From Arthrobacter sp. (GTDB taxonomy: Bacteria; Actinomycetota; Actinomycetes; Actinomycetales; Micrococcaceae), in assembly GCF_031179985.1 (NCBI RefSeq), contig NZ_JAPSHJ010000007.1:18766-82765 (forward strand): a DNA stretch of 64,000 bases. Reading direction: 5' to 3'. Position 1 is the first letter of the stretch, and every line of letters starts with the position of its first letter. This document shows positions 28,265-39,241 of this stretch, in pieces. The position numbers and the translations under genes are program-made. The notes under the pieces were generated by a model. The model was given only the letters and a program-made list of their open reading frames with translations. It was not told where the DNA came from and ran no database searches.

Positions 28265-28387
28265 CGACAGGGGAGCGCCGCCGTCGGGCATCACCGGGAT
28301 TCCGGGAGTGCGATGGATGGGCGCTGAGAGTGCGGACAGCCGCAGACCCTCGAACCTGATCCGGTTAGTACCGGCGCAAGGGAGTCG
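28265..28387 (+). ncRNA. TPP (thi-box) riboswitch
   Basis: All core elements of the thiamine pyrophosphate aptamer are present. The closing stem is CGAC 28265-28268 with GTCG 28384-28387. P3 is GCGCC 28275-28279 with GGCGC 28319-28323, followed by the invariant CTGAGA 28324-28329, the AACCTGAT block 28353-28360, and the CCGG/CCGG stem with the GCGCAAGGGAG close. P3 carries a long apical extension of about 39 bases that can fold (CATC 28289-28292, CCGG, GATG 28313-28316). It precedes the YkoE-D-C genes, as expected for thiamine repression. Confidence 0.95.
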
Positions 28388-28431
28388 AGTTCTCAGAGTG
28401 TCCGGCAGATGCGGCGCAATCCGCGGTGGCC

Positions 28432-28464
28432 GGGGAGCACTTTCCCCTCCTGTTCCTCAGGAGG
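28432..28464 (+). promoter_or_regulatory. Riboswitch expression platform that masks the ykoE ribosome site
   Basis: CCTCCTG (28446-28452) pairs perfectly with CAGGAGG (28458-28464), burying the Shine-Dalgarno sequence five bases before the ATG. A competing stem, GGGGA (28432-28436) with TCCCC (28443-28447), shares bases with its left arm. This predicts control of translation initiation rather than termination; no T-run is present. Confidence 0.65.
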
Positions 28465-28469
28465 AAGAC

Positions 28470-29102
28470 ATGACTGGAATTTCTGAAAAGCAGACCCTCA
28501 CAGCCGGCAAACGGAGCTGGCGCGTTGTAGACATCGTGGTGGCGGCCCTGATTGCCGTCGCCGGTGGCGTGATTTTTTGGGCGTGGTCCCAGGGCGCCAA
28601 CGTTATTTCGGCTCCGCTTAATGCGGTTTACCCCCCGCTGACCGGACTGTACGCCGGTGGCTGGATGATCCCGGCGGTACTGGGAATGCTCATTATCCGC
28701 AAGCCGGGCGCGGCCCTGTTCTGCGAGACCGTTGCGGCTACGGGTGAGCTCCTCATGGGCTCGCAGTACGGCACCACCGTGCTGATTTCCGGCCTGCTGC
28801 AGGGCCTTGGCGCCGAACTGGTGTTCGCGGCGTTTGTATACAAGAAGTTCAACCTTCCGGTCGCTTTGCTGGCGGGCGCAGGTGCTGGCTTTTTCTGCGG
28901 TCTGAACGATTCCTTCGCGCCATGGGGCTGGAACATTGCCTACGCGGCCGGAGACAAGGCCGCCTACATCATCTTCACCGCGATCTCGGGTGCCGTCATT
29001 GCCGGGGGCCTGTCCTGGATCGCCACCCGTGGGCTCGCTAAAACCGGAGTTTTGAGCTCCTTCGCCTCCCGTAAGGCTGCGACGGAGCCCGTCTTCTCCT
29101 GA
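28470..29102 (+). CDS. ykoE: ECF transporter S component, YkoE type (thiamine/HMP)
   Basis: YkoE is the substrate-binding membrane subunit of the YkoEDC energy-coupling-factor transporter for hydroxymethylpyrimidine or thiamine. The 210 residues hold five to six helices, with family strings VIFWAWSQGANVISAPLNAVYPPL, ETVAATGELLMGSQYGTTVL and SGLLQGLGAELVFAAF. The ATG at 28470 follows AGGAGG with five-base spacing; the frame is open further upstream only through the riboswitch. The stop overlaps the ykoD start by one base. Control by the TPP riboswitch supports vitamin B1 uptake. Confidence 0.93.
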   Translation: MTGISEKQTLTAGKRSWRVVDIVVAALIAVAGGVIFWAWSQGANVISAPLNAVYPPLTGLYAGGWMIPAVLGMLIIRKPGAALFCETVAATGELLMGSQYGTTVLISGLLQGLGAELVFAAFVYKKFNLPVALLAGAGAGFFCGLNDSFAPWGWNIAYAAGDKAAYIIFTAISGAVIAGGLSWIATRGLAKTGVLSSFASRKAATEPVFS

Positions 29103-30661
29103 TGACACCGATTCGCGACGGCGGCGTCCGCCCGGCCGGGGTAACGGCGCAAGGCTGGGCCTGGCGGCACGCCGGCAGGCCCCGCCCCGCCGTCCAAGGG
29201 CTTAATCTGGACATCCGCGCGGGGGAGCGGGTGCTCCTGCTCGGCCCCTCGGGTGCCGGCAAATCCACGCTCCTGCACGCCCTCGCGGGGGTGCTCGGCG
29301 ACACGAACGACGACGGCGGCGAGGCGGGCGACTCCGACGAGTCCGGTTCGCTGCTCATTGACGGCCAGCCGCCACGGGCCCAGCGCGGGCGTGCCGGGCT
29401 TATGCAGCAGGATCCGGAAACGCAGGTGATCCTGTCCCGCCTCGGCGACGACGTCGCCTTCGGTGCCGAGAACCTCGCAGTGCCCCCTGCGGAGATCTGG
29501 ACCCGGGTGCATGAGGCGCTCGACGACGTCGGGCTGGGTCATCTGCCGTTGGACCACCCGACGTCGGCCCTGTCCGGCGGACAAAAGCAGCGCCTGGCGC
29601 TCGCCGGCATCCTGGCCATGCGTCCGGGGATCATTTTGCTGGATGAGCCCACCGCCAACCTTGATCCTGCCGGAGTGCTCGAAGTCCGTGATGCCGTGGG
29701 CCGTTGTCTGGAGAAGACCGGCGCAACCCTGGTGGTCGTGGAGCATCGTGTTGCGGTGTGGAAAGACCTTGTGGACCGGATCGTGGTGCTGCAGCCGGGA
29801 GCTTCGAATGACGGCGCGGTGCTCATTGATGGACCTCCTGACCTGGTGCTGGAGCAGGCAAAGGAGATGCTGATCAGGGCGGGGGTCTGGGTTCCCGGCC
29901 ACGTTCCGGCGACGCGCCAGCGGGGTTCGGCTGCTGCACTGCCACCCGGCACCGCAGGTACCGGCCAATTGCTCCTTGCCGCGGAAAAGCTTGCCGTCTC
30001 GCGCGAACGGCCCCGGCGCCGCGGCTTCAAAAAGCTTCCTCCCACGCCCGTGCAAACCGGGATATCCGCGCAGGTCCGGGCGGGTGAAGCGCTGACCGTC
30101 ACCGGGCCCAACGGCTCGGGAAAGTCCACCTTTGCCCTCACGCTGGCCGGGCTGCTGAAGCCTGTTGCCGGAGCTGTATCAGCCACCCTTGAGCTGAGCG
30201 CCGGTGCCGGAATTGATCCATACAAGTGGAAGGCCGAACAGCTGATTTCCAGGATCGGAACGGTGTTCCAGGAACCCGAGCACCAGTTTGTCACCGGCCG
30301 GGTCTTGGATGAGCTCCTTTTCGGGCCCAGACATCTGGGCCACGGCGAGGAACGCGTCGACGAACTCCTGGAGCGGCTAAGGCTCACTTCCCTCGTGGAC
30401 GCCAACCCCTACACACTGTCCGGGGGCGAAAAGCGACGGCTCTCGGTGGCCACCGTACTGGCCGCCCACCCACAGGTGCTGGTGCTGGATGAGCCCACCT
30501 TCGGCCAGGACGCCACCACGTGGGCCGAACTGGCTTCCTTCCTCTCCGAGCTCCTGGACGCCGGAGCCGCAGTTGTTTCCGTGACCCACGACCAGGAATT
30601 TTCCTCGGTCCTCGGTGGCACCGAACTCGCAATGGGGACTCCGGAAATGGCCGCATCATGA
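29102..30661 (+). CDS. ykoD: ECF transporter ATP-binding protein with two ABC domains, YkoD type
   Basis: This 519-residue protein fuses two ATPase domains. The first has Walker A GPSGAGKST near residue 50, signature ALSGGQKQRLAL and Walker B IILLDEPTANLDP. The second has GPNGSGKST near residue 338, a Q-loop with FQEPEHQFVTG, signature LSGGEKRRLS and VLVLDEPTFGQD. Both look competent. It powers vitamin uptake by YkoE through the T component. It starts inside the ykoE stop and ends in an ATGA overlap with ykoC, so the three genes form a tight operon. Confidence 0.94.
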   Translation: MTPIRDGGVRPAGVTAQGWAWRHAGRPRPAVQGLNLDIRAGERVLLLGPSGAGKSTLLHALAGVLGDTNDDGGEAGDSDESGSLLIDGQPPRAQRGRAGLMQQDPETQVILSRLGDDVAFGAENLAVPPAEIWTRVHEALDDVGLGHLPLDHPTSALSGGQKQRLALAGILAMRPGIILLDEPTANLDPAGVLEVRDAVGRCLEKTGATLVVVEHRVAVWKDLVDRIVVLQPGASNDGAVLIDGPPDLVLEQAKEMLIRAGVWVPGHVPATRQRGSAAALPPGTAGTGQLLLAAEKLAVSRERPRRRGFKKLPPTPVQTGISAQVRAGEALTVTGPNGSGKSTFALTLAGLLKPVAGAVSATLELSAGAGIDPYKWKAEQLISRIGTVFQEPEHQFVTGRVLDELLFGPRHLGHGEERVDELLERLRLTSLVDANPYTLSGGEKRRLSVATVLAAHPQVLVLDEPTFGQDATTWAELASFLSELLDAGAAVVSVTHDQEFSSVLGGTELAMGTPEMAAS

Positions 30662-31473
30662 GGGAAGCCTTGACGCTCCGGAGTGAATCGCTCCTCAGCC
30701 GAGCCAACCCGCTGGCCAAGTTTGCCGCCGTCTTCCTCATCACTCTGGTTCTGGCGTTGTCCATCGACTGGGTCTCCGCAACTGTGGCGCTGGGCTTCGA
30801 GCTGCTGTTGTTTCCGTTGGCAGGGCTGACTCCCTTGCTCCTGTGGCAACGCGGGTGGCCGCTGATCATCGCCGCAGCCCTGGGCGGCTGGAGTACCGCC
30901 ATTCTGGCTCCGGACGCCGGAAGGATACTGCTCGACGTTGGCATCTGGTCCATCAGCGCAGGTTCCCTCGAACTGGGGCTGGGATTCATGCTCCGGGGGC
31001 TGGCCATTGCGCTGCCGGCGGTGCTGCTTATGAGCTGCACCGACCCTACAGACCTTGCCGATGCCCTGGCCCAAAAAGCGAAACTGCCGCACCGCTTCGT
31101 CCTTGGGACCCTGGCAGCGATGCGGCTGGTAGGGCTCATGGCGGAGGAGTGGCAAACCATCGGGATGGCCCGCCGCGCCCGTGGCGTAGGTTCTCGCGGC
31201 ACGCCGTTGCAGCGACTCCGGGCCACCCTGGGCCAGAGCTTCGGGCTGCTGGTACAGGCCATCCGGCGCGCTTCAAGGCTCGCTGTCACGATGGAGGCGC
31301 GTGGATTCGGTGGAGCCCAACGGACGTGGGCGCGCGAATCCACGTACAGCCGGCTGGATGTCTGGGTGCTCGTGGGCGGAACGGTAATCGCTGCCGCCGC
31401 CGTGACAGCGGCGATCGGCGCAGGGACCTGGAACCTGGTCTGGGCGTCAACTGGTTACCCTCACAACACGTAG
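30658..31473 (+). CDS. ykoC: ECF transporter T component, YkoC type
   Basis: This 271-residue membrane protein couples the ATPases to YkoE. It has the CbiQ/EcfT family pattern: N-terminal RANPLAKFAAVFLITLVLA, several helices, and the two Ala-Arg-Gly coupling helices (MARRARGVG and MEARGFGG) that dock on the ATPases. The ATG at 30658 overlaps the ykoD stop. The stop codon lies in one arm of a possible stem (31466-31473 with 31484-31491), which has no T-run. Confidence 0.93.
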   Translation: MREALTLRSESLLSRANPLAKFAAVFLITLVLALSIDWVSATVALGFELLLFPLAGLTPLLLWQRGWPLIIAAALGGWSTAILAPDAGRILLDVGIWSISAGSLELGLGFMLRGLAIALPAVLLMSCTDPTDLADALAQKAKLPHRFVLGTLAAMRLVGLMAEEWQTIGMARRARGVGSRGTPLQRLRATLGQSFGLLVQAIRRASRLAVTMEARGFGGAQRTWARESTYSRLDVWVLVGGTVIAAAAVTAAIGAGTWNLVWASTGYPHNT

Positions 31474-31629
31474 CGGATGGTCACTACGTGTACGCAAGCT
31501 GGCTGACTTCCCGGCTCGCAGCAAAACCCCAATAGGTATTTTCGCGGCTGAAATATCGCATCAATCGGGTAAAGCTGTGTCCTTTCTCCCAAAATGACCT
31601 GCTTTTCAGCGTTTGAAACTCATAAATGA

Positions 31630-31641
31630 TATATTTTTGAT
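31630..31641 (+). promoter_or_regulatory. -10 box and dyad, leaderless start of XRE-MurA gene
   Basis: TATATT (31630-31635) is followed by six bases and then the ATG at 31642. There is no Shine-Dalgarno sequence, so a leaderless transcript is likely. The stretch from 31620 to 31645 has symmetric ends (TCATA ... TATGA) and could be an operator for the encoded XRE domain. Confidence 0.45.
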
Positions 31642-33165
31642 ATGACTCAAGAGACTGCGGAATCTGTCGGCGCCATGCTTCGCGATGCCAGGACGGAAAA
31701 AGGCTGGACCCAGGGGCAGTTGGCCGCAGAGCTTGGAACAAGCCAGAGCGCCATTGCCCGGATGGAACAGGGCAAGCAGAATCTGAGCCTGAAGATGATC
31801 CAGCGGCTGGAAACCATCTTCGGCCACGCCATGGTGAAAGTCGGCCGGCCACAGATGACCCACCTCCGGGTGGAAGGCGGCCTTACCCTGTCCGGCTCGG
31901 TGGACGTAAACAGCAGCAAGAACGCCGGCGTCGCGCTTCTCTGTGCCAGCCTCATAAACAGGGGGACCACCACTCTCCGCAGACTGGCCAGGATCGAGGA
32001 AGTCAACAGGATCGTGGAGGTTCTCACCAGCATCGGCGTCGAATGCACCTGGCTCAACGACACCGATCTGCAGATCCGCAGGCCGGCAGTTCTGGACCTG
32101 GCCTCGATGGACGTCGAAGCCGCCCGCCGCACACGCAGCGTGATCATGCTGCTGGGCCCCTTGCTGGATGAGTCAGCGGAGTACCGCCTCCCCTATGCCG
32201 GAGGGTGCGATCTGGGCACGCGCACGGTTGAACCGCATATGCAGGCACTGCGGCAATTCGGCCTTTCAGTGGAGGCCAGCGCAGGGTTTTACGCCGTCCA
32301 GGCTCCCCTGTCGGATGAGCAGGACCGCTCTTTTGTGCTCAGCGAACGCGGCGACACCGTTACCGAAAACGCAATCATGGCTGCAGCGCACCGCCGCGGA
32401 ACCACTGTCATCCGTAACGCCAGCCCCAACTACATGGTTCAGGACCTTTGCTTCTACCTCCAGATGCTGGGTGTGGAGATAGGGGGTGTTGGCACCACCA
32501 CGTTGAAGATCACGGGCCAGCCCTCCATAGACGCCGATGTCGAATATTTCCCGTCCGAGGACCCGATCGAGGCAATGAGCCTCATTACGGCCGGCATCGT
32601 GACCAATTCCGAGGTCACTGTCCGTCGGGTCCCCATCGAGTTCATGGAGATCGAGCTGGCCACGCTCGAGCAGATGGGGCAGGAGTTGGAGGTTTCCGGA
32701 GAGTACTTTGCGCGCAACGGACGCACACGGCTGGTGGATGTCACCACTAAACCATCGGAGCTGCACGCTCCCCAGGACAAAATCCATCCCATGCCGTTCC
32801 CCGGCCTGAACATCGACAATCTGCCGTTCTTTGCCGTAATAGCGGGGAACGCCGAGGGGCAGACGATGATCCACGACTGGGTCTATGAGAACCGTGCCAT
32901 TTATCTGACAGAACTGAACAAGCTCGGCGCTCAGGTACAGCTGCTGGATCCACACCGCATCTACGTTAATGGGCCTACCAAGTGGCGTGCTGCAGAAGTG
33001 GGCTGCCCGCCTGCGCTCCGTCCGGCGGCTTGCCTGCTGCTCGCGATGCTGGCTGCCCGGGGCGTTTCCGAGCTCCGCAACATCTACGTTATCGAGCGCG
33101 GCTATGAAGACCTCGCAGAACGCCTTAACACGCTTGGCGCCCGGATCGAGTACTTCCAGGACTAA
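31642..33165 (+). CDS. XRE helix-turn-helix fused to MurA-like enolpyruvyl transferase
   Basis: Residues 8-62 form an XRE/Cro-type DNA-binding domain (LRDARTEKGWTQGQLAAELG, SQSAIARMEQGK). Residues 72-507 form an EPT-fold MurA-like enzyme. Catalytic positions of E. coli MurA are kept: Lys93 in NSSKNAG (K22), Cys189 in GGCDLGTR (C115), Arg194 (R120), Asp392 (D305) and Arg486 in ERGYED (R397). It could therefore transfer enolpyruvate from PEP to UDP-GlcNAc, the first step of peptidoglycan synthesis, or a related sugar. It is longer than usual MurA (about 420) because of the HTH. It stands alone, with no division or wall genes beside it. A separate housekeeping murA is expected elsewhere. A regulator that senses UDP-GlcNAc or PEP is an attractive alternative role. 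Confidence 0.88.
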   Translation: MTQETAESVGAMLRDARTEKGWTQGQLAAELGTSQSAIARMEQGKQNLSLKMIQRLETIFGHAMVKVGRPQMTHLRVEGGLTLSGSVDVNSSKNAGVALLCASLINRGTTTLRRLARIEEVNRIVEVLTSIGVECTWLNDTDLQIRRPAVLDLASMDVEAARRTRSVIMLLGPLLDESAEYRLPYAGGCDLGTRTVEPHMQALRQFGLSVEASAGFYAVQAPLSDEQDRSFVLSERGDTVTENAIMAAAHRRGTTVIRNASPNYMVQDLCFYLQMLGVEIGGVGTTTLKITGQPSIDADVEYFPSEDPIEAMSLITAGIVTNSEVTVRRVPIEFMEIELATLEQMGQELEVSGEYFARNGRTRLVDVTTKPSELHAPQDKIHPMPFPGLNIDNLPFFAVIAGNAEGQTMIHDWVYENRAIYLTELNKLGAQVQLLDPHRIYVNGPTKWRAAEVGCPPALRPAACLLLAMLAARGVSELRNIYVIERGYEDLAERLNTLGARIEYFQD

Positions 33166-33209: not shown

Positions 33210-34394
33210 ATGCGGACCTTTGGCGTGGAGGAAGAACTGCTCATTGTGGACCCTGACACTGGGGAGCCGCTGGCCTTGGCCGACGCGCTGCTGGCCGTCC
33301 GGACTGCCGACGACGCCCCGGAATCTGAGGGCGAGACCGGGCTGACAGCCGAGCTCAAGCTGGAGCAGATTGAAACGCAGACGCTGCCCTGCCGCGACCA
33401 CACGGAGCTCCTCCAGCAAATCCGGGACGGCCGGGCAATGGCGGACCAAGCTGCCCGGCAGCACGGTGCGCGTGTGGCTGCACTCGCCACGTCGCCCCTT
33501 GCCTCCACTACCCACACCACTCCGGACCCTCGGTACGCGACGATTCAGGAGCGTTTCGGCCTCACGGTGCACGAGCTGCTTACGTGCGGTTTCCACGTCC
33601 ACACCTTCGTCGAATCCCCGGAGGAGGGTGTGGCGGTCCTGGACAGGATCCGGGACAAGTTGGCCATCCTTGTTGCCTTGAGCGCCAATTCGCCGTTCTG
33701 GAACGGAGTGGAGACAGGGTTTGAAAGCTACCGCACCCAGGCGTGGTACCGCTTACCTACGTCGGGTCCCTCCGCGATCTTCGGTACCTTGCCCGTGTAC
33801 CGGCGCACCGTTACCAGGCTCTTGGAAACAGGGGTACTCCTTGACGAGGGAATGATCTACTTCGATGCCAGGCTGGCGCGGAACCATCCCACTGTTGAGG
33901 TCCGGGTGGCCGACGTCTGCCTCCGTGCGGAGGATGCCGCATTAATCGCAGTGCTGGTACGCGCGCTGGTGGAAACGGCAAGCCGCGAATGGCACGACGA
34001 CGTGGATCCGATCCCAGTGCCCACCGTCCTGCTGAGGACCGCTTCCTGGCAGGCCAGCAATCGCGGACTCCGCGGTGAACTTCTTCATTTCGGCACCTTC
34101 ACGCCTGCCCCCGCCGCTGACGTCGTAAATGCCCTGGTGGACTACCTCGAACCGGTCCTGCGCGAGCAGGGTGAGCTGGAACTGGTCAGAGCCGGCGTCA
34201 CACGGATCCTGTCCCATGGCACCGGCTCCGAGCAGCAGCGGCGGGCCCGCCAAGAAGCGGGAGCGGACGCGGCGTTCGACGGCGGCGGGCTGAGCGCCGT
34301 CGTCGCTCACGCGGTGAAGGTCACCATGCGCGGAGCTGACGCGATTCCGACGGCGGCCCAGTCACCGGTCCTCCAGCGGGTCAGGCGCGGCTGA
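33210..34394 (+). CDS. YbdK-type carboxylate-amine ligase (GCS2 family)
   Basis: The 394-residue protein belongs to glutamate-cysteine ligase family 2. Evidence is the opening [14 protein letters not shown], the [13 protein letters not shown] segment, [15 protein letters not shown], and the [18 protein letters not shown] block that builds the ATP/glutamate site. E. coli YbdK has weak glutamate-cysteine ligase activity. Actinobacteria use mycothiol, so glutathione synthesis is not assured; a link to ergothioneine (EgtA-like) or another amide ligation is possible. It follows the XRE-MurA gene by 44 bases, without a clear ribosome site, and ends at the strong terminator at 34450. Confidence 0.85.
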
Positions 34395-34567: not shown

Positions 34568-37500
34568 TTAGGGGAGAGCCCCTTCCGTGGTTTGTGCTGC
34601 CTTGCGGCGGCGGTTGGTGACCATGGTGAGGCCGGCGATCAGGAGTACCAGGGCTGCTCCGAGTCCGGTGAGGATGTTTGTTCCGGTGTTGGCCAGGGCG
34701 GCGGCCTGCGTGATCACTTTGTGGGTGGTGGTGCAGTCCGGGTTCTGGTCCTGGGCCGGTACACATATGCCTCCGGTGCCGGGGGTGACAGTGTTGGTGA
34801 GTGTGCCGTCCCCGGATCCTACTGCGCCGGTGGTGACGGAGTAGGTGATGGTGACTACGTCTCCAACGGAGAGGTTCCCGTTCCAGGTCAGTTTGTCGCT
34901 GGCCCGGTCCACGTTGACGGTCCCGGCCGAGGCTGTGGCGTCGTTGTTGTAGGCGGCGTCGTCAAGGACCTTGGCCAGGTCATCGGTGGCGACGGCTCCG
35001 GTCACTGATCCGGGCCCGGTTTGGCGGACCTGGACGGTGTAGGTGACCTTGTTCCCCTCGACGATGTTGGAACCGTTATCGGGGTCCGAGGTCTTGGAGA
35101 CGGTGTAGCCGCCCTGAAGGTGGGTGGTGGTGCAGTCGGGGTTCTCATCCTCGGCCGGAACGCATTCGCCTCCGGGTCCGGGGGTAACCACGTTTGTCAG
35201 GGTTCCGTCGCCGGCGCCGAAAGCGCCGGTGGTGACGGAGTACGTGATGGTGACTACGTCCCCGACGGCCAGGTCCCCGGTCCAGGTCAGTTTGTTGCTG
35301 GCCTGGTCCGCCGTGACGTTCCCGGCCGAGGCTGTGGCGTCGTTGTTGTAGGCGGCGTCGTCCAGGACCTTGGACAGGTCATCGGTGGCCAGAGCACCAG
35401 GTACAGTTGCCGGCCCTGCCTGACGGACCTGGACGGTGTAGGTGATCTTGTTGCCCTCGGCGACTGAGGAGCCGTTGGCCGGATCCGAAGTCTTGGAGAC
35501 CGTGAAGCCGCCCTTGAGGTGTGTGGTGGTGCATTCGGTGCTCTGGCCTTCGGCCGGGACGCATTCGCCTCCGGTGCCGGGGGTGACAACGTTGAGCAGT
35601 TCGCCGTCGCCGCCGTCCAGCGGTCCGGTCACCGTGACTGAGTACGTCAGGGTGATGGTCTGTCCGGGCATGATCTGTCCGGCTGACCAGGAGAGGGTGT
35701 CGCCGGTGACAGTGGCGGTGCCGCTGTCCGGTTCGACCACGGTGACGTCGCCGTTGTAGTCGGCGTCATCCAGAACCCCGGCCAGGCTGTCTGAAATTGA
35801 CGGGTTCGGATAGGGTGCGGCGCTGGTTGCCGGTTCGGTGATGGTGACCGTGTAACGGATCACGTCGCCTGGTTTGACGTTCGTACCGGATGAGGGATCA
35901 GCGGTCTTCACCACGGTGTAGGGTTCCGGGACGAGGAAACCTGCGGGGTCTGTCGGCTCCAGGGGTGGCCCGTCCGGTGGGGTGACCGAGGCTGTGGCGG
36001 TGTTGATGGTGGTGCCGACCGCTGCTGTCATTTCACAGTTCACCGTGGCGGAGGCGCCTACGGCGATGCTGGGGATGGTGGTGCCGCAGTCCGGGATCAG
36101 TGAATCGGAGACGAGGACGTTGGTGAGCTCACCGCTGCCCTTGTTGGTGGCAATGATCCGGAAGGGAACAGTATCTCCGACCAGGTACTGCGGGTAGTCA
36201 GCGGTGGCGTTCGCGTCCCTCCAGTCCGCGTCGTTGGCCGGGTCCCCGCCCTTGACGAGGACGTACTTTTTCAGGTCCATGGCGTAGCAGTCACCGATAA
36301 CGGCTGTTGCTGAGGAGAGCATCGGCAGCATGGTGTGCCCGGCGATGGAGTTGGCTGTGTTGACCAGGACCTGGCCGGGCTTGTTGTCCCCGGCGGCCGG
36401 GGCAACGCAGTCCGTCCCTGCCGGGGTGGCGAAATTAATCGAGATCCGCTGGGACGCACCGGGTTCCAGGGCGGGGCCGATGATCCTGACGGCAGTGGGG
36501 TTTGCAACGGGAGCGGTGGACCAGTTCACGGTGTTGCCCGTGACGGAGCCGGGGGCGTCGCCGTTGGAGCCATCCCTGGGGTCGTTGCTCAGGTCACCGG
36601 ACGGCCACGTCGTGTAGTAGACGGTGGAACCGGCCGGGGCGTCCACTCCGGTGATGGTGTAGGTTCCGTCGATGTTCGTCCCGCCGGCGTCGCCGGCCAC
36701 GGGAAGGATGTCGATGGTGTCCGTGAAGGGGTTCACGATGGGGTCCTGGGAATTAACAATCAGTTCCCACGAGGACGTATCCCCGTAGAAGGAGAGCACG
36801 TTATCCGCCGCGGACTTCCCCAGTGTGGTGGCCGAGGAGTTCGGGACGGTCACCGTCGCCGACGCTGACCGGGCACCGACCGGGCGCTGGTCACCGGGGA
36901 CGCTGATGACGGCCGTGTTCGTCAGTTTGCTGCCCGGAACCGGGGTTCCGTCCTCCGGGACCTGGGCCTGGTACGTGATGGTCTGGTCCACGTTGGCCGG
37001 GACATTGGTGAAGTCCCAGGTAATGGTCCGTCCGTCAGGGGAAACCGATGACGGCGCAGGGCTGGCCGAGCCTTGGACGTAGACCATGCCCTCGGGAAGA
37101 GTATCCACTACCGGGAACGAGACAGGCGGCGGGCTCGTGACCAGGTTGTCCGCCCTGGCCGTAATCGTGTACGGGATCGGGACACCAGGCTGCGCCGTTG
37201 TCTCCGTGGTCGCCTTCGTAATCACACCCTGCGGTCCCTGCAACCGGAAAGCATCCCCGGAACCGTTCATGTTCGGCCCGAAAGTGCTCCCTGGCAGATC
37301 AATACCGCCCGGGGCGCTGCTGACGTTGTGCCAGCCGTTCAAAGACGGATACTCCGGGTAGACTCCCGGCGTCGGGTGGTTGAACGCTCCGACAGTCCAG
37401 CCTTCACCGCTGGTGGGCGCGTCAGGGGAAATGTAACCAAAAGCACGGAGGAATGTGTGCGGTGAACGGTCCACCGCCGGATCCCAGGTCATCTTCACGG

Positions 37501-39106
37501 CGGTCACGCCGGCAGGAAGAGTCATCAGGCTATCGGTCGTGACCCGCGGGTCATTCAGCGAAGTACCCGCAGCCGGGGAAATCTCGGTCCACATGCCACT
37601 CGGTGCAGTCTGGCCGCAGGTTTCGGTCTTGGGGTTGATGGCAGCGGTGGTGTAGAAGTACCGCGCCGTCGGGTAGTTGATGTACGAGTTAACACCACCG
37701 ATAAGACCGTCCCAGCCGCCGCCGTCCACATGGGTCGGAATGAAGGCCGGGTTCTGGTTCATCGTGCAAATGCCGGCCATCTGAGCACCGCCGGGGCCGG
37801 TGTAAGTCGACCAGAAGGTGCTGTTGGCCTGCATGTACATCCGCAAGTCGACGTCCTCGCCAGCGTTGGATGCTGCCACCAATTCGTCATACGTGTCCAT
37901 GCCGGGGATCGGCAGGGGCATGTCCTGGCTGGTGCCGGGGCTTACCCACAGGTTCGCGTCCCAGGGGGTGCGGGAATAGGTAGGCGTTCCGGTCCAGTGG
38001 TTGTTGAAGCCTCCGGGTGGCGGAAGGGTGGCGGAGGAGACGTTGTTGGTCTGGGGGTCGGGCGAGGTCACCCCGTCAGTGAACGTAAAGGCAGGGGAAC
38101 CGGCCGCGCTGAACGTGTAGGTGGTGAGCACAGTGACAGGCGTAGGGATGCTGAATTCGATGGTGCCCGAAGCGATGTAAGCGCCGCTTCCCGGCAACGG
38201 AGATCCCATGCTGTCGTTGACCGGGGTGTTGACCAGGGTGTAGGTCAGGTCTGAGACGGTGACGGAGTAGTTGGCACCCGAACCGGTGACTGCGCAGGTG
38301 GGGAAGTTGGTTCTGTCGGCCTGAGTGGGGTCCGAGTAGGGCTGGCCCGTTGACCTTGAGCGAGCACCGACGGGGACGCAGTTTTCAAACTGGAAGCCCG
38401 TCATGGCACCGGCAACCGAGCCCGTGACGTTGACGGGGAAGGTGTAGGACGCGGGGCCTGGCCGGCTGCCGGCGTCGAGGATCAGGGAGTAGTTCATCTT
38501 GATGAACGTGCGGTTGCCTCCGGAGCGGCTTTCCTGAACGGCCCCCTGATACCCTTGGCCGGGCGCTGAGACGAGGGAGAGGTCCATGCCGTGGGAGTAG
38601 GTGATCGGCAGAGGTGCCGGGCTTGCCGGTCCTGCCGGAGCAATCGCCTCATCCGAAGTGGCGGTGCCGGATGCGGTCAGATTGCCGCCGTTTTCTCCGG
38701 AAACCCGGATGGGCGCCTGAATGACGGTGGATGTTCCCTCAACGATGGTCCCTATGTTGCAGACGAGGGTTGTGCCGTCAGCGGAGATCGAGGAAACAGG
38801 ATCGACATTTGCCGTCTTGCACACCGTGGGGATGCTCGTGAAGACACCGTTGCCGGCCGTCAGGGTGGCCCGGACGTTGTCTACGGGCTCGTTGAGTTGA
38901 GGTGCATCGGCGTCGTTGGTGTTGACATGGAATTCGGCGACGCGGGTGGACGCGAAGGGGGCGTCGGTAGGAGCCGGATCGCCGGCCCAGTTGGCTGTGA
39001 TCTCGTGAATGGAGCCAGGGGCTGCCCAGGCTGCGGGAAGAGTTCCCATGATAAGTGCTGCCAGCAGTGCGAACGCGACAGTGAAAGACAGACTCTTTCG
39101 CGCCAT
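34568..39106 (-). CDS. Wall-anchored repeat surface protein (LAxTG signal)
   Basis: The 1512-residue product starts with a signal peptide (MARKSLSFTVAFALLAALIMG ... AWAAPG). It continues as beta-rich DUF11-like and adhesin-type domains, carries three tandem repeats of about 132 residues near the end, and closes with LANTG (1471-1475), a hydrophobic helix (LTGLGAALVLLIAGLTMV) and basic NRRRK. LAxTG motifs are typical substrates of class E sortases in high-GC actinobacteria, so covalent attachment to the wall is expected. Each repeat contains TVSKTSDP and YTVQVRQ-type strands with Asp/Lys pairs that could form isopeptide bonds. Start 39106 is chosen for the signal peptide. GGGAG lies only one base before it, a second GGGAG about 12 bases before it, so the start is not certain. 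No sortase is adjacent. Confidence 0.85.
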   Translation of the reverse strand: MARKSLSFTVAFALLAALIMGTLPAAWAAPGSIHEITANWAGDPAPTDAPFASTRVAEFHVNTNDADAPQLNEPVDNVRATLTAGNGVFTSIPTVCKTANVDPVSSISADGTTLVCNIGTIVEGTSTVIQAPIRVSGENGGNLTASGTATSDEAIAPAGPASPAPLPITYSHGMDLSLVSAPGQGYQGAVQESRSGGNRTFIKMNYSLILDAGSRPGPASYTFPVNVTGSVAGAMTGFQFENCVPVGARSRSTGQPYSDPTQADRTNFPTCAVTGSGANYSVTVSDLTYTLVNTPVNDSMGSPLPGSGAYIASGTIEFSIPTPVTVLTTYTFSAAGSPAFTFTDGVTSPDPQTNNVSSATLPPPGGFNNHWTGTPTYSRTPWDANLWVSPGTSQDMPLPIPGMDTYDELVAASNAGEDVDLRMYMQANSTFWSTYTGPGGAQMAGICTMNQNPAFIPTHVDGGGWDGLIGGVNSYINYPTARYFYTTAAINPKTETCGQTAPSGMWTEISPAAGTSLNDPRVTTDSLMTLPAGVTAVKMTWDPAVDRSPHTFLRAFGYISPDAPTSGEGWTVGAFNHPTPGVYPEYPSLNGWHNVSSAPGGIDLPGSTFGPNMNGSGDAFRLQGPQGVITKATTETTAQPGVPIPYTITARADNLVTSPPPVSFPVVDTLPEGMVYVQGSASPAPSSVSPDGRTITWDFTNVPANVDQTITYQAQVPEDGTPVPGSKLTNTAVISVPGDQRPVGARSASATVTVPNSSATTLGKSAADNVLSFYGDTSSWELIVNSQDPIVNPFTDTIDILPVAGDAGGTNIDGTYTITGVDAPAGSTVYYTTWPSGDLSNDPRDGSNGDAPGSVTGNTVNWSTAPVANPTAVRIIGPALEPGASQRISINFATPAGTDCVAPAAGDNKPGQVLVNTANSIAGHTMLPMLSSATAVIGDCYAMDLKKYVLVKGGDPANDADWRDANATADYPQYLVGDTVPFRIIATNKGSGELTNVLVSDSLIPDCGTTIPSIAVGASATVNCEMTAAVGTTINTATASVTPPDGPPLEPTDPAGFLVPEPYTVVKTADPSSGTNVKPGDVIRYTVTITEPATSAAPYPNPSISDSLAGVLDDADYNGDVTVVEPDSGTATVTGDTLSWSAGQIMPGQTITLTYSVTVTGPLDGGDGELLNVVTPGTGGECVPAEGQSTECTTTHLKGGFTVSKTSDPANGSSVAEGNKITYTVQVRQAGPATVPGALATDDLSKVLDDAAYNNDATASAGNVTADQASNKLTWTGDLAVGDVVTITYSVTTGAFGAGDGTLTNVVTPGPGGECVPAEDENPDCTTTHLQGGYTVSKTSDPDNGSNIVEGNKVTYTVQVRQTGPGSVTGAVATDDLAKVLDDAAYNNDATASAGTVNVDRASDKLTWNGNLSVGDVVTITYSVTTGAVGSGDGTLTNTVTPGTGGICVPAQDQNPDCTTTHKVITQAAALANTGTNILTGLGAALVLLIAGLTMVTNRRRKAAQTTEGALP
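34715..35926 (-). repeat. Three tandem coding repeats in surface protein
   Basis: Units lie at about 35510-35926, 35114-35509 and 34715-35110, running in the gene's direction. The two distal units are 396 bases (132 codons) and nearly identical at protein level (shared AEGNK/VEGNK, LDDAAYNNDATASAG, VGDVVTITYSVTTGA, DCTTTH). The first is more diverged. Such arrays can expand or shrink by recombination. Confidence 0.85.
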
Positions 39107-39241
39107 GCTCCCGTCGATGCTCCCAAGGTGAGTCCGGGACCTAAGACCCTCCCAGAGGTTCCCTGGACCTTTCCCGGGATTTGGGCTCTGACGTAAATGA
39201 TTCAACTGAGTACCACCTGACGATTGGATCAGGGCACAGAT

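Follow-up and report, generated by a model that had tools for sequence, protein, structure and literature searches.

The question raised by this locus is whether one protein could carry out an early step of cell wall synthesis and also read the promoter of its own gene. The first committed intermediate of peptidoglycan is the product of MurA, and the window (the whole stretch of 64,000 nucleotides analysed here, from Arthrobacter sp.) holds a gene in which a helix-turn-helix (HTH) segment precedes a MurA-like domain. The features of this gene are as follows.

31642..33165 (+): HTH-MurA fusion gene, 507 aa, an uninterrupted ORF from the ATG at 31642 to the stop at 33165
31678..31824 (+): HTH_3 domain, residues 13-61 (Pfam, 49.0 bits vs a cut-off of 23)
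31744-31767 (+): recognition helix, about residues 35-42, from the helices of the AlphaFold2 model
31873..33126 (+): MurA/EPSP_synthase domain, residues 78-495 (Pfam, 155.8 bits vs a cut-off of 22.8)
32344..32370 (+): ERGDTVTEN-type loop, residues 235-243, which replaces the E. coli pyrophosphate loop with Ser162 and Gly164 (81/81 fusion proteins)
33004..33024 (+): CPPALRP, residues 455-461, which replaces the segment with E. coli Asp369 (81/81)

An earlier note on this DNA had proposed that an XRE-type HTH is fused to a MurA-like enzyme, and this is borne out by the single ORF and by both Pfam domains, each above its cut-off. The gathering score of PF01381, the XRE/Cro-type HTH family, is exceeded, and residues 78-495 match PF00275, the family of EPSP synthase and MurA, well over the cut-off. 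Among the NCBIfam models, the fusion passes the subfamily NF006873, named UDP-N-acetylglucosamine 1-carboxyvinyltransferase (321.8 vs 297 bits), and falls short of the MurA equivalog TIGR01072 (312.7 vs 392.7 bits). An AlphaFold2 model, for which 43 aligned members of the fusion family were the input, has a mean pLDDT of 88.3, with a poorly ordered linker between the domains (about residues 61-70) and low confidence in the loop of residues 188-192 around Cys189. The closest solved folds to this model are MurA structures, with a target TM-score of about 0.9, so that the domain has the MurA fold. NikO acts on UMP in nikkomycin synthesis. This enolpyruvyl transferase (PDB 4fqd) has a related fold and came up in the same searches as MurA, but it matches the fusion less well (79.2 vs 189.5 bits for the best MurA). 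That the HTH segment might be a separate gene with its own start and stop, which the earlier note had named as grounds for rejecting the idea, is ruled out: 80/80 relatives (those retained of at least 589) are full-length, and 123/123 matches in a sample of the class are free of stops.

The fusion is widespread. At least 589 relatives were confirmed in public genomes, and the 80 retained align from residue 1-9 to 506-507, with 64-98% identity; genera among the relatives listed include Arthrobacter, Pseudarthrobacter, Sinomonas, Brachybacterium, Nocardioides, Aeromicrobium, Janibacter and Streptomyces. A search for the same domain order in other actinobacteria, as the earlier note had suggested, used an even sampling of 393 Actinomycetes genomes and a threshold of E <= 1e-150, and found the fusion in 123 of them, one match each and none with an internal stop. 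Of these matches 120 span nearly the whole protein, whereas the other three, in G298, G089 and G208, are partial. A tree of 26 enolpyruvyl transferases places its 13 fusion proteins in a single clade on a long stem (support 98/97), although the program warns of long-branch attraction and the grouping of the canonical MurAs is weak (52/58). HTH-MurA is an old, stable family of Actinomycetes. One of the partial matches (L252, G298:C1:2095128-2096255) is cut at residue 376 in an open frame of 394 aa and retains the predicted operator described below (score 33.8); it may be a decaying or a misassembled copy. Very divergent additional enolpyruvyl transferases were also seen, at G116:C1:3472562-3473791 (L187, 112.9 bits, on a very long tree branch) and G012:C13:190089-191321 (101.2 bits), perhaps from natural-product clusters.

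Whether the enzyme domain is still a MurA was examined by aligning 81 fusion proteins with E. coli MurA and with the second MurA of the window's own genome. The canonical enzymes have the same fold and the same nine active-site residues as the fusion, but they have no HTH, and identity is low, at 25.8% to the E. coli protein and 28.1% to the window genome's own copy. The nine residues, in E. coli numbering, are Lys22, Asn23, Arg91, Cys115, Arg120, Asp305, Arg331, Arg371 and Arg397, and all are invariant in 81/81. The earlier statement that every key MurA residue is kept therefore stands for the five that it named (fusion Lys93, Cys189, Arg194, Asp392 and Arg486, equivalent to E. coli Lys22, Cys115, Arg120, Asp305 and Arg397; 81/81), but not for Ser162, Gly164 and Asp369, which are replaced in 81/81 and which the window genome's second MurA (G000:C100) retains. 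The changes, again in every fusion protein, are Ser162 to Gly, Val163 to Asp, Gly164 to Thr, Lys160 to Glu and Arg232 to Pro, while Asp369 aligns with Pro (PPALRP) next to a one-residue gap. E. coli MurA has been subjected to deep mutational scanning, and among the ten residues listed as least tolerant, position 162 accepts only Ser or Thr, 164 only Gly and 369 only Asp or Glu; S162 and G164 touch the substrate pyrophosphate (PMC9842644). The fusion retains seven of these ten. Since the other three, nearly immutable in E. coli, are missing, the description of the enzyme as catalytically intact, in the E. coli sense, does not hold by sequence.

MurB uses the product of MurA. In 35 genomes that all carry the fusion and are 99-100% complete, members of PF00275 were counted, and 17 of the 35 have just two, one being the fusion. 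Its partner is AroA in 17/17 (G042 by NCBIfam and 16 by BLAST), and MurB was found in 17/17. A second set of 24 genomes, named via the public-genome relatives and including several draft assemblies (the completeness figures are for the 35 of the first set, and the MurB check covered 17 of those), contains 11 with the fusion and AroA only: five Aeromicrobium, Mumia quercus, Nocardioides sp. Soil774, N. jensenii, Janibacter massiliensis, Piscicoccus intestinalis and Auraticoccus cholistanensis. Both sets combined, the partner is AroA in 28/28 two-member genomes, and the ERGDTVTEN and CPPALRP motifs are present in 3/3 sole-MurA members inspected in full. The counts are restricted to genomes with exactly two members because those scoring 325-357 bits may be either MurA or AroA; by NCBIfam, the ambiguous members in G127 (L175), G159, G005 and G381 are MurA and that in G172 (L182) is AroA. 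The remaining genomes, including the window's, have extra PF00275 members, and those identified in a sample included canonical MurAs. The second murA that the earlier note had advised looking for does exist, as a canonical-type MurA elsewhere in the window's genome (G000:C100).

Because the fusion is the only MurA found in 17/35 genomes that also have AroA and MurB, it is very probably, judging from these gene complements, a divergent MurA that still works despite the three missing hallmark residues, and the same finding supports the proposal of an enzyme-repressor fusion. No other MurA seems to be present in the Aeromicrobium, Nocardioides and Janibacter genomes examined. A first view of the fusion as a pseudoenzyme, taken from the loss of Asp369, was dropped given the sole-MurA genomes. 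A related alternative is that the domain has ceased to be a MurA and serves as a sensor, or as an enzyme for another acceptor. The replacement in 81/81 of three among the ten residues least tolerant in E. coli, the missed TIGR01072 cut-off and the long stem in the tree would all fit such a change, but the sole-MurA genomes with their MurB, and the invariance of the nine other active-site residues, make it improbable. A changed role is less excluded in species that also have a canonical MurA, such as that of the window.

If the fusion is a working MurA, the next question is what its HTH binds. Upstream of the fusion gene, amid otherwise divergent DNA, the relatives share an 18-bp palindrome, TATCTCA-N4-TGAGATA, with variants such as TAACTCA...TGAGTTA and TATCGCA...TGCGATA. 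Since raw palindrome scoring rewards every inverted repeat, it separated promoters poorly from random stretches, and a trained matrix was used instead; this was built from 38 loci, no Arthrobacter-like locus among them, and its best score over 869,248 background positions was 10.6. With this matrix the predicted operator precedes the fusion gene in 116/118 promoters of the class sample, each scoring above the background maximum (79/80 in a first batch, or 74/75 without loci identical to training ones, and 37/38 in a second, none of whose 38 is identical to a locus of the public-genome relatives). Once loci identical to training are taken out, the count is 111/113.

Genome-wide searches allowing at most one mismatch show how confined this element is. 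In 20 genomes chosen from the public-genome relatives, 18 have the site at the fusion's own promoter and 14 of those 18 have it nowhere else; the two misses have variant sites in place, and six of the 24 match places lie off the own promoter, one of them exact (G017). In the class sample, 23 of the 25 genomes searched have the site at their own promoter, all exact matches (17/17) are own promoters and six one-mismatch places lie elsewhere; the two misses are G260, which has a weaker own site (27.8), and G270, without a site. Twenty fusion-free genomes gave no exact match, and four of them gave six places between them with one mismatch; all are from the window's order, so that as a control they are not matched to other orders. 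No canonical murA promoter was recognised among the genome-wide match places. By these searches the predicted operator is near-unique in each genome and close to private to the fusion gene. A different but related palindrome, TATCTCAACGTTGA[GA]AT, occurs in Streptomyces-type genomes (G017:C152:13529-13592, in two tandem copies; G012:C31:641781; G172:C1:5160706) and is probably the site of another regulator.

In the window itself, the promoter region contains three elements.

31616..31633 (no strand): operator-like palindrome (proximal), AAACTCATAAATGATATA, 26 bp upstream of the ATG, matrix score 23.8 vs a background maximum of 10.6
31554..31571 (no strand): operator-like site (distal), TATCGCATCAATCGGGTA, 88 bp upstream of the ATG, the sole exact match in the genome
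31630..31635 (+): TATATT, the putative -10 box of a leaderless promoter; it overlaps the proximal site and is placed by spacing and by the TANNNT of relatives

The AT-rich dyad that had been noticed before the gene is the proximal site. Its core is the sole match in the genome within one mismatch, by a pattern derived from the site itself, and at up to two mismatches the pattern of the distal site is no commoner than a reversed control (16 places each). Arthrobacter-like relatives exceed the matrix background in 28/41 cases and not in 13, but within 170 bp upstream TATC[GT]CAY occurs in 41/42 of their loci vs 4/2922 background windows, and TCAYNNRTGATAT in 26/42 vs 0/2922; the two upstream elements are spaced 69-81 bp apart. 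Across the class sample, 77/79 and 37/37 sites finish with the TA that opens a TANNNT -10 box, and the first start codon lies 10-11 nt past the site in 58/79. No Shine-Dalgarno sequence was seen on inspection before the ATG of the window, and the TANNNT of relatives is spaced so as to start the transcript at the start codon. The gene thus apparently has a leaderless promoter, as had been suggested, and an operator lying over the -10 box of such a promoter would favour repression.

Both operator misses of the class sample (G270 and G089) belong to one genus (g7), and their recognition helices read GMT..DIEQIE, where the other members displayed have TSQSA..R[IM]E or close variants; TACGAT, a TANNNT box, is still present at both promoters. 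Since both misses have a changed recognition helix, operator and HTH were remodelled together, and since the two genomes are of one genus this counts as one event. The two loci (L157 in G270 and L253 in G089) also have in common a GCTGACCTACGATGG promoter stretch, and g7 has possibly switched to a new operator. Covariation between residue 39 and an operator base was suggestive, but it was set aside and not used as evidence because the rows are related.

With footprinting across relatives, a near-unique site in each genome and the joint remodelling of HTH and operator, the fusion very probably sits on its own promoter, as the earlier note had supposed. It could be argued instead that the palindrome is the site of another regulator, or a sigma-factor promoter motif, and that the HTH of the MurA does something else or nothing. 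In favour of this, the palindrome overlaps the -10 box, and one public-genome relative, a Dermatophilaceae MAG (L078) left out of matrix training, has a normal recognition helix and no recognisable site (best score -9.3). Such a motif would hardly be expected, however, to be nearly confined to the fusion gene and to lack exact copies in the 20 fusion-free genomes of the window's order, and both g7 genomes lost the palindrome along with the usual recognition helix yet retain TANNNT, so we regard this explanation as unlikely. That the fusion protein activates its promoter rather than repressing it is also unlikely. An activator could use the second upstream site of Arthrobacter-like loci, 69-81 bp off, but the site of the non-Arthrobacter promoters has its end within the -10 box, so that a protein bound there should keep RNA polymerase out.

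Returning to self-repression by the fusion, the neighbouring genes offer little guide to function. Upstream in the window (28308-31473, +) are an ABC_cobalt-type permease component, a double-ATPase ABC protein and a CbiQ-type permease, resembling an ECF-type transporter, and its ATPase adjoins the fusion in 36/42 Arthrobacter-like loci and 0/39 others. Downstream by 45 bp is a GCS2 gene (glutamate-cysteine ligase family 2; 33210-34394, +), for which co-transcription is possible and which is common to 29/42 Arthrobacter-like loci and 0/39 others. It is followed at 34568-39205 (-) by a gene for a surface-type protein of 1545 aa, with repeated DUF7927/DUF11 domains and near-identical C-terminal repeats. 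Apart from the fusion and overlapping frames, no gene cluster is common to more than 14 of the 39 non-Arthrobacter-like loci, and for this reason no function was inferred from neighbours.

In Streptomyces, the fusion adjoins the aconitase gene acnA in the two loci checked (L074 and L082), and in the literature SCO5998 (MurA2) adjoins SCO5999 (AcnA) (PMC12161575). Because both adjoin acnA, Streptomyces MurA2 (SCO5998, sven5810, vnz_28735) is, on gene order, very probably the orthologue of the fusion. It appears in the available parts of published work as a second MurA that BldM-WhiI or SigB controls, with no mention there of an HTH or of self-regulation: murA2 is a BldM-WhiI target (PMC4125116), the SCO5998 promoter is SigB-dependent (PMC8346170), and overexpression of murA2 failed to copy the whiI exploration phenotype (PMC11005364). 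No report of an HTH-MurA fusion or of its self-regulation was found among the matches listed in a mostly open-access literature.

By mechanism, the fusion would belong with trigger enzymes such as PutA, which represses its own gene and putP from a single target, the DNA between the two being all that it binds (PMC8249747). PutA and others (BirA, NadR and PepA) likewise combine an enzyme and a DNA-binding regulator in one protein, although the enzymes, folds and pathways differ. The fusion has enzyme and DNA-binding domains in one chain and, judged by sequence, a specific operator at its target promoter; for PutA the substrate switch has been demonstrated, whereas for the fusion such a switch is speculative.

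Taken together, we consider that HTH-MurA is a divergent but working MurA joined to a Cro-type HTH, a single-target trigger enzyme that represses its own gene, and would give this reading a probability of roughly three in four. The protein, presumably as a dimer, would bind the palindrome at its own promoter, and once bound would cover the -10 box and so repress its gene, while the MurA domain would catalyse enolpyruvyl transfer to UDP-GlcNAc. More speculatively, UDP-GlcNAc, PEP or UDP-MurNAc might gate DNA binding. A tentative extension, which we would rate at somewhat less than an even chance, is that many actinobacteria depend for their peptidoglycan on this MurA with a remodelled active site, and that it doubles as a metabolite-gated repressor of its gene, in which one of these ligands shifts the enzyme between its open and closed forms and thereby releases or locks the HTH dimer, making a flux sensor of a single protein at the step that commits the cell to wall synthesis. 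The broader suggestion, that the protein switches cell wall synthesis at large, finds no support, because the only predicted target is the fusion's own gene.

If the reading is true, a MurA that reads its own promoter would give wall synthesis a very short feedback loop, and as the fusion is the only such enzyme found in many soil actinobacteria, the first step of the wall appears in them to control its own supply. A further suggestion is that a MurA on which cells live can do without the E. coli residues at three positions that are nearly immutable there, and this matters for the binding of MurA inhibitors. The predicted operator makes the claim of self-repression directly testable.
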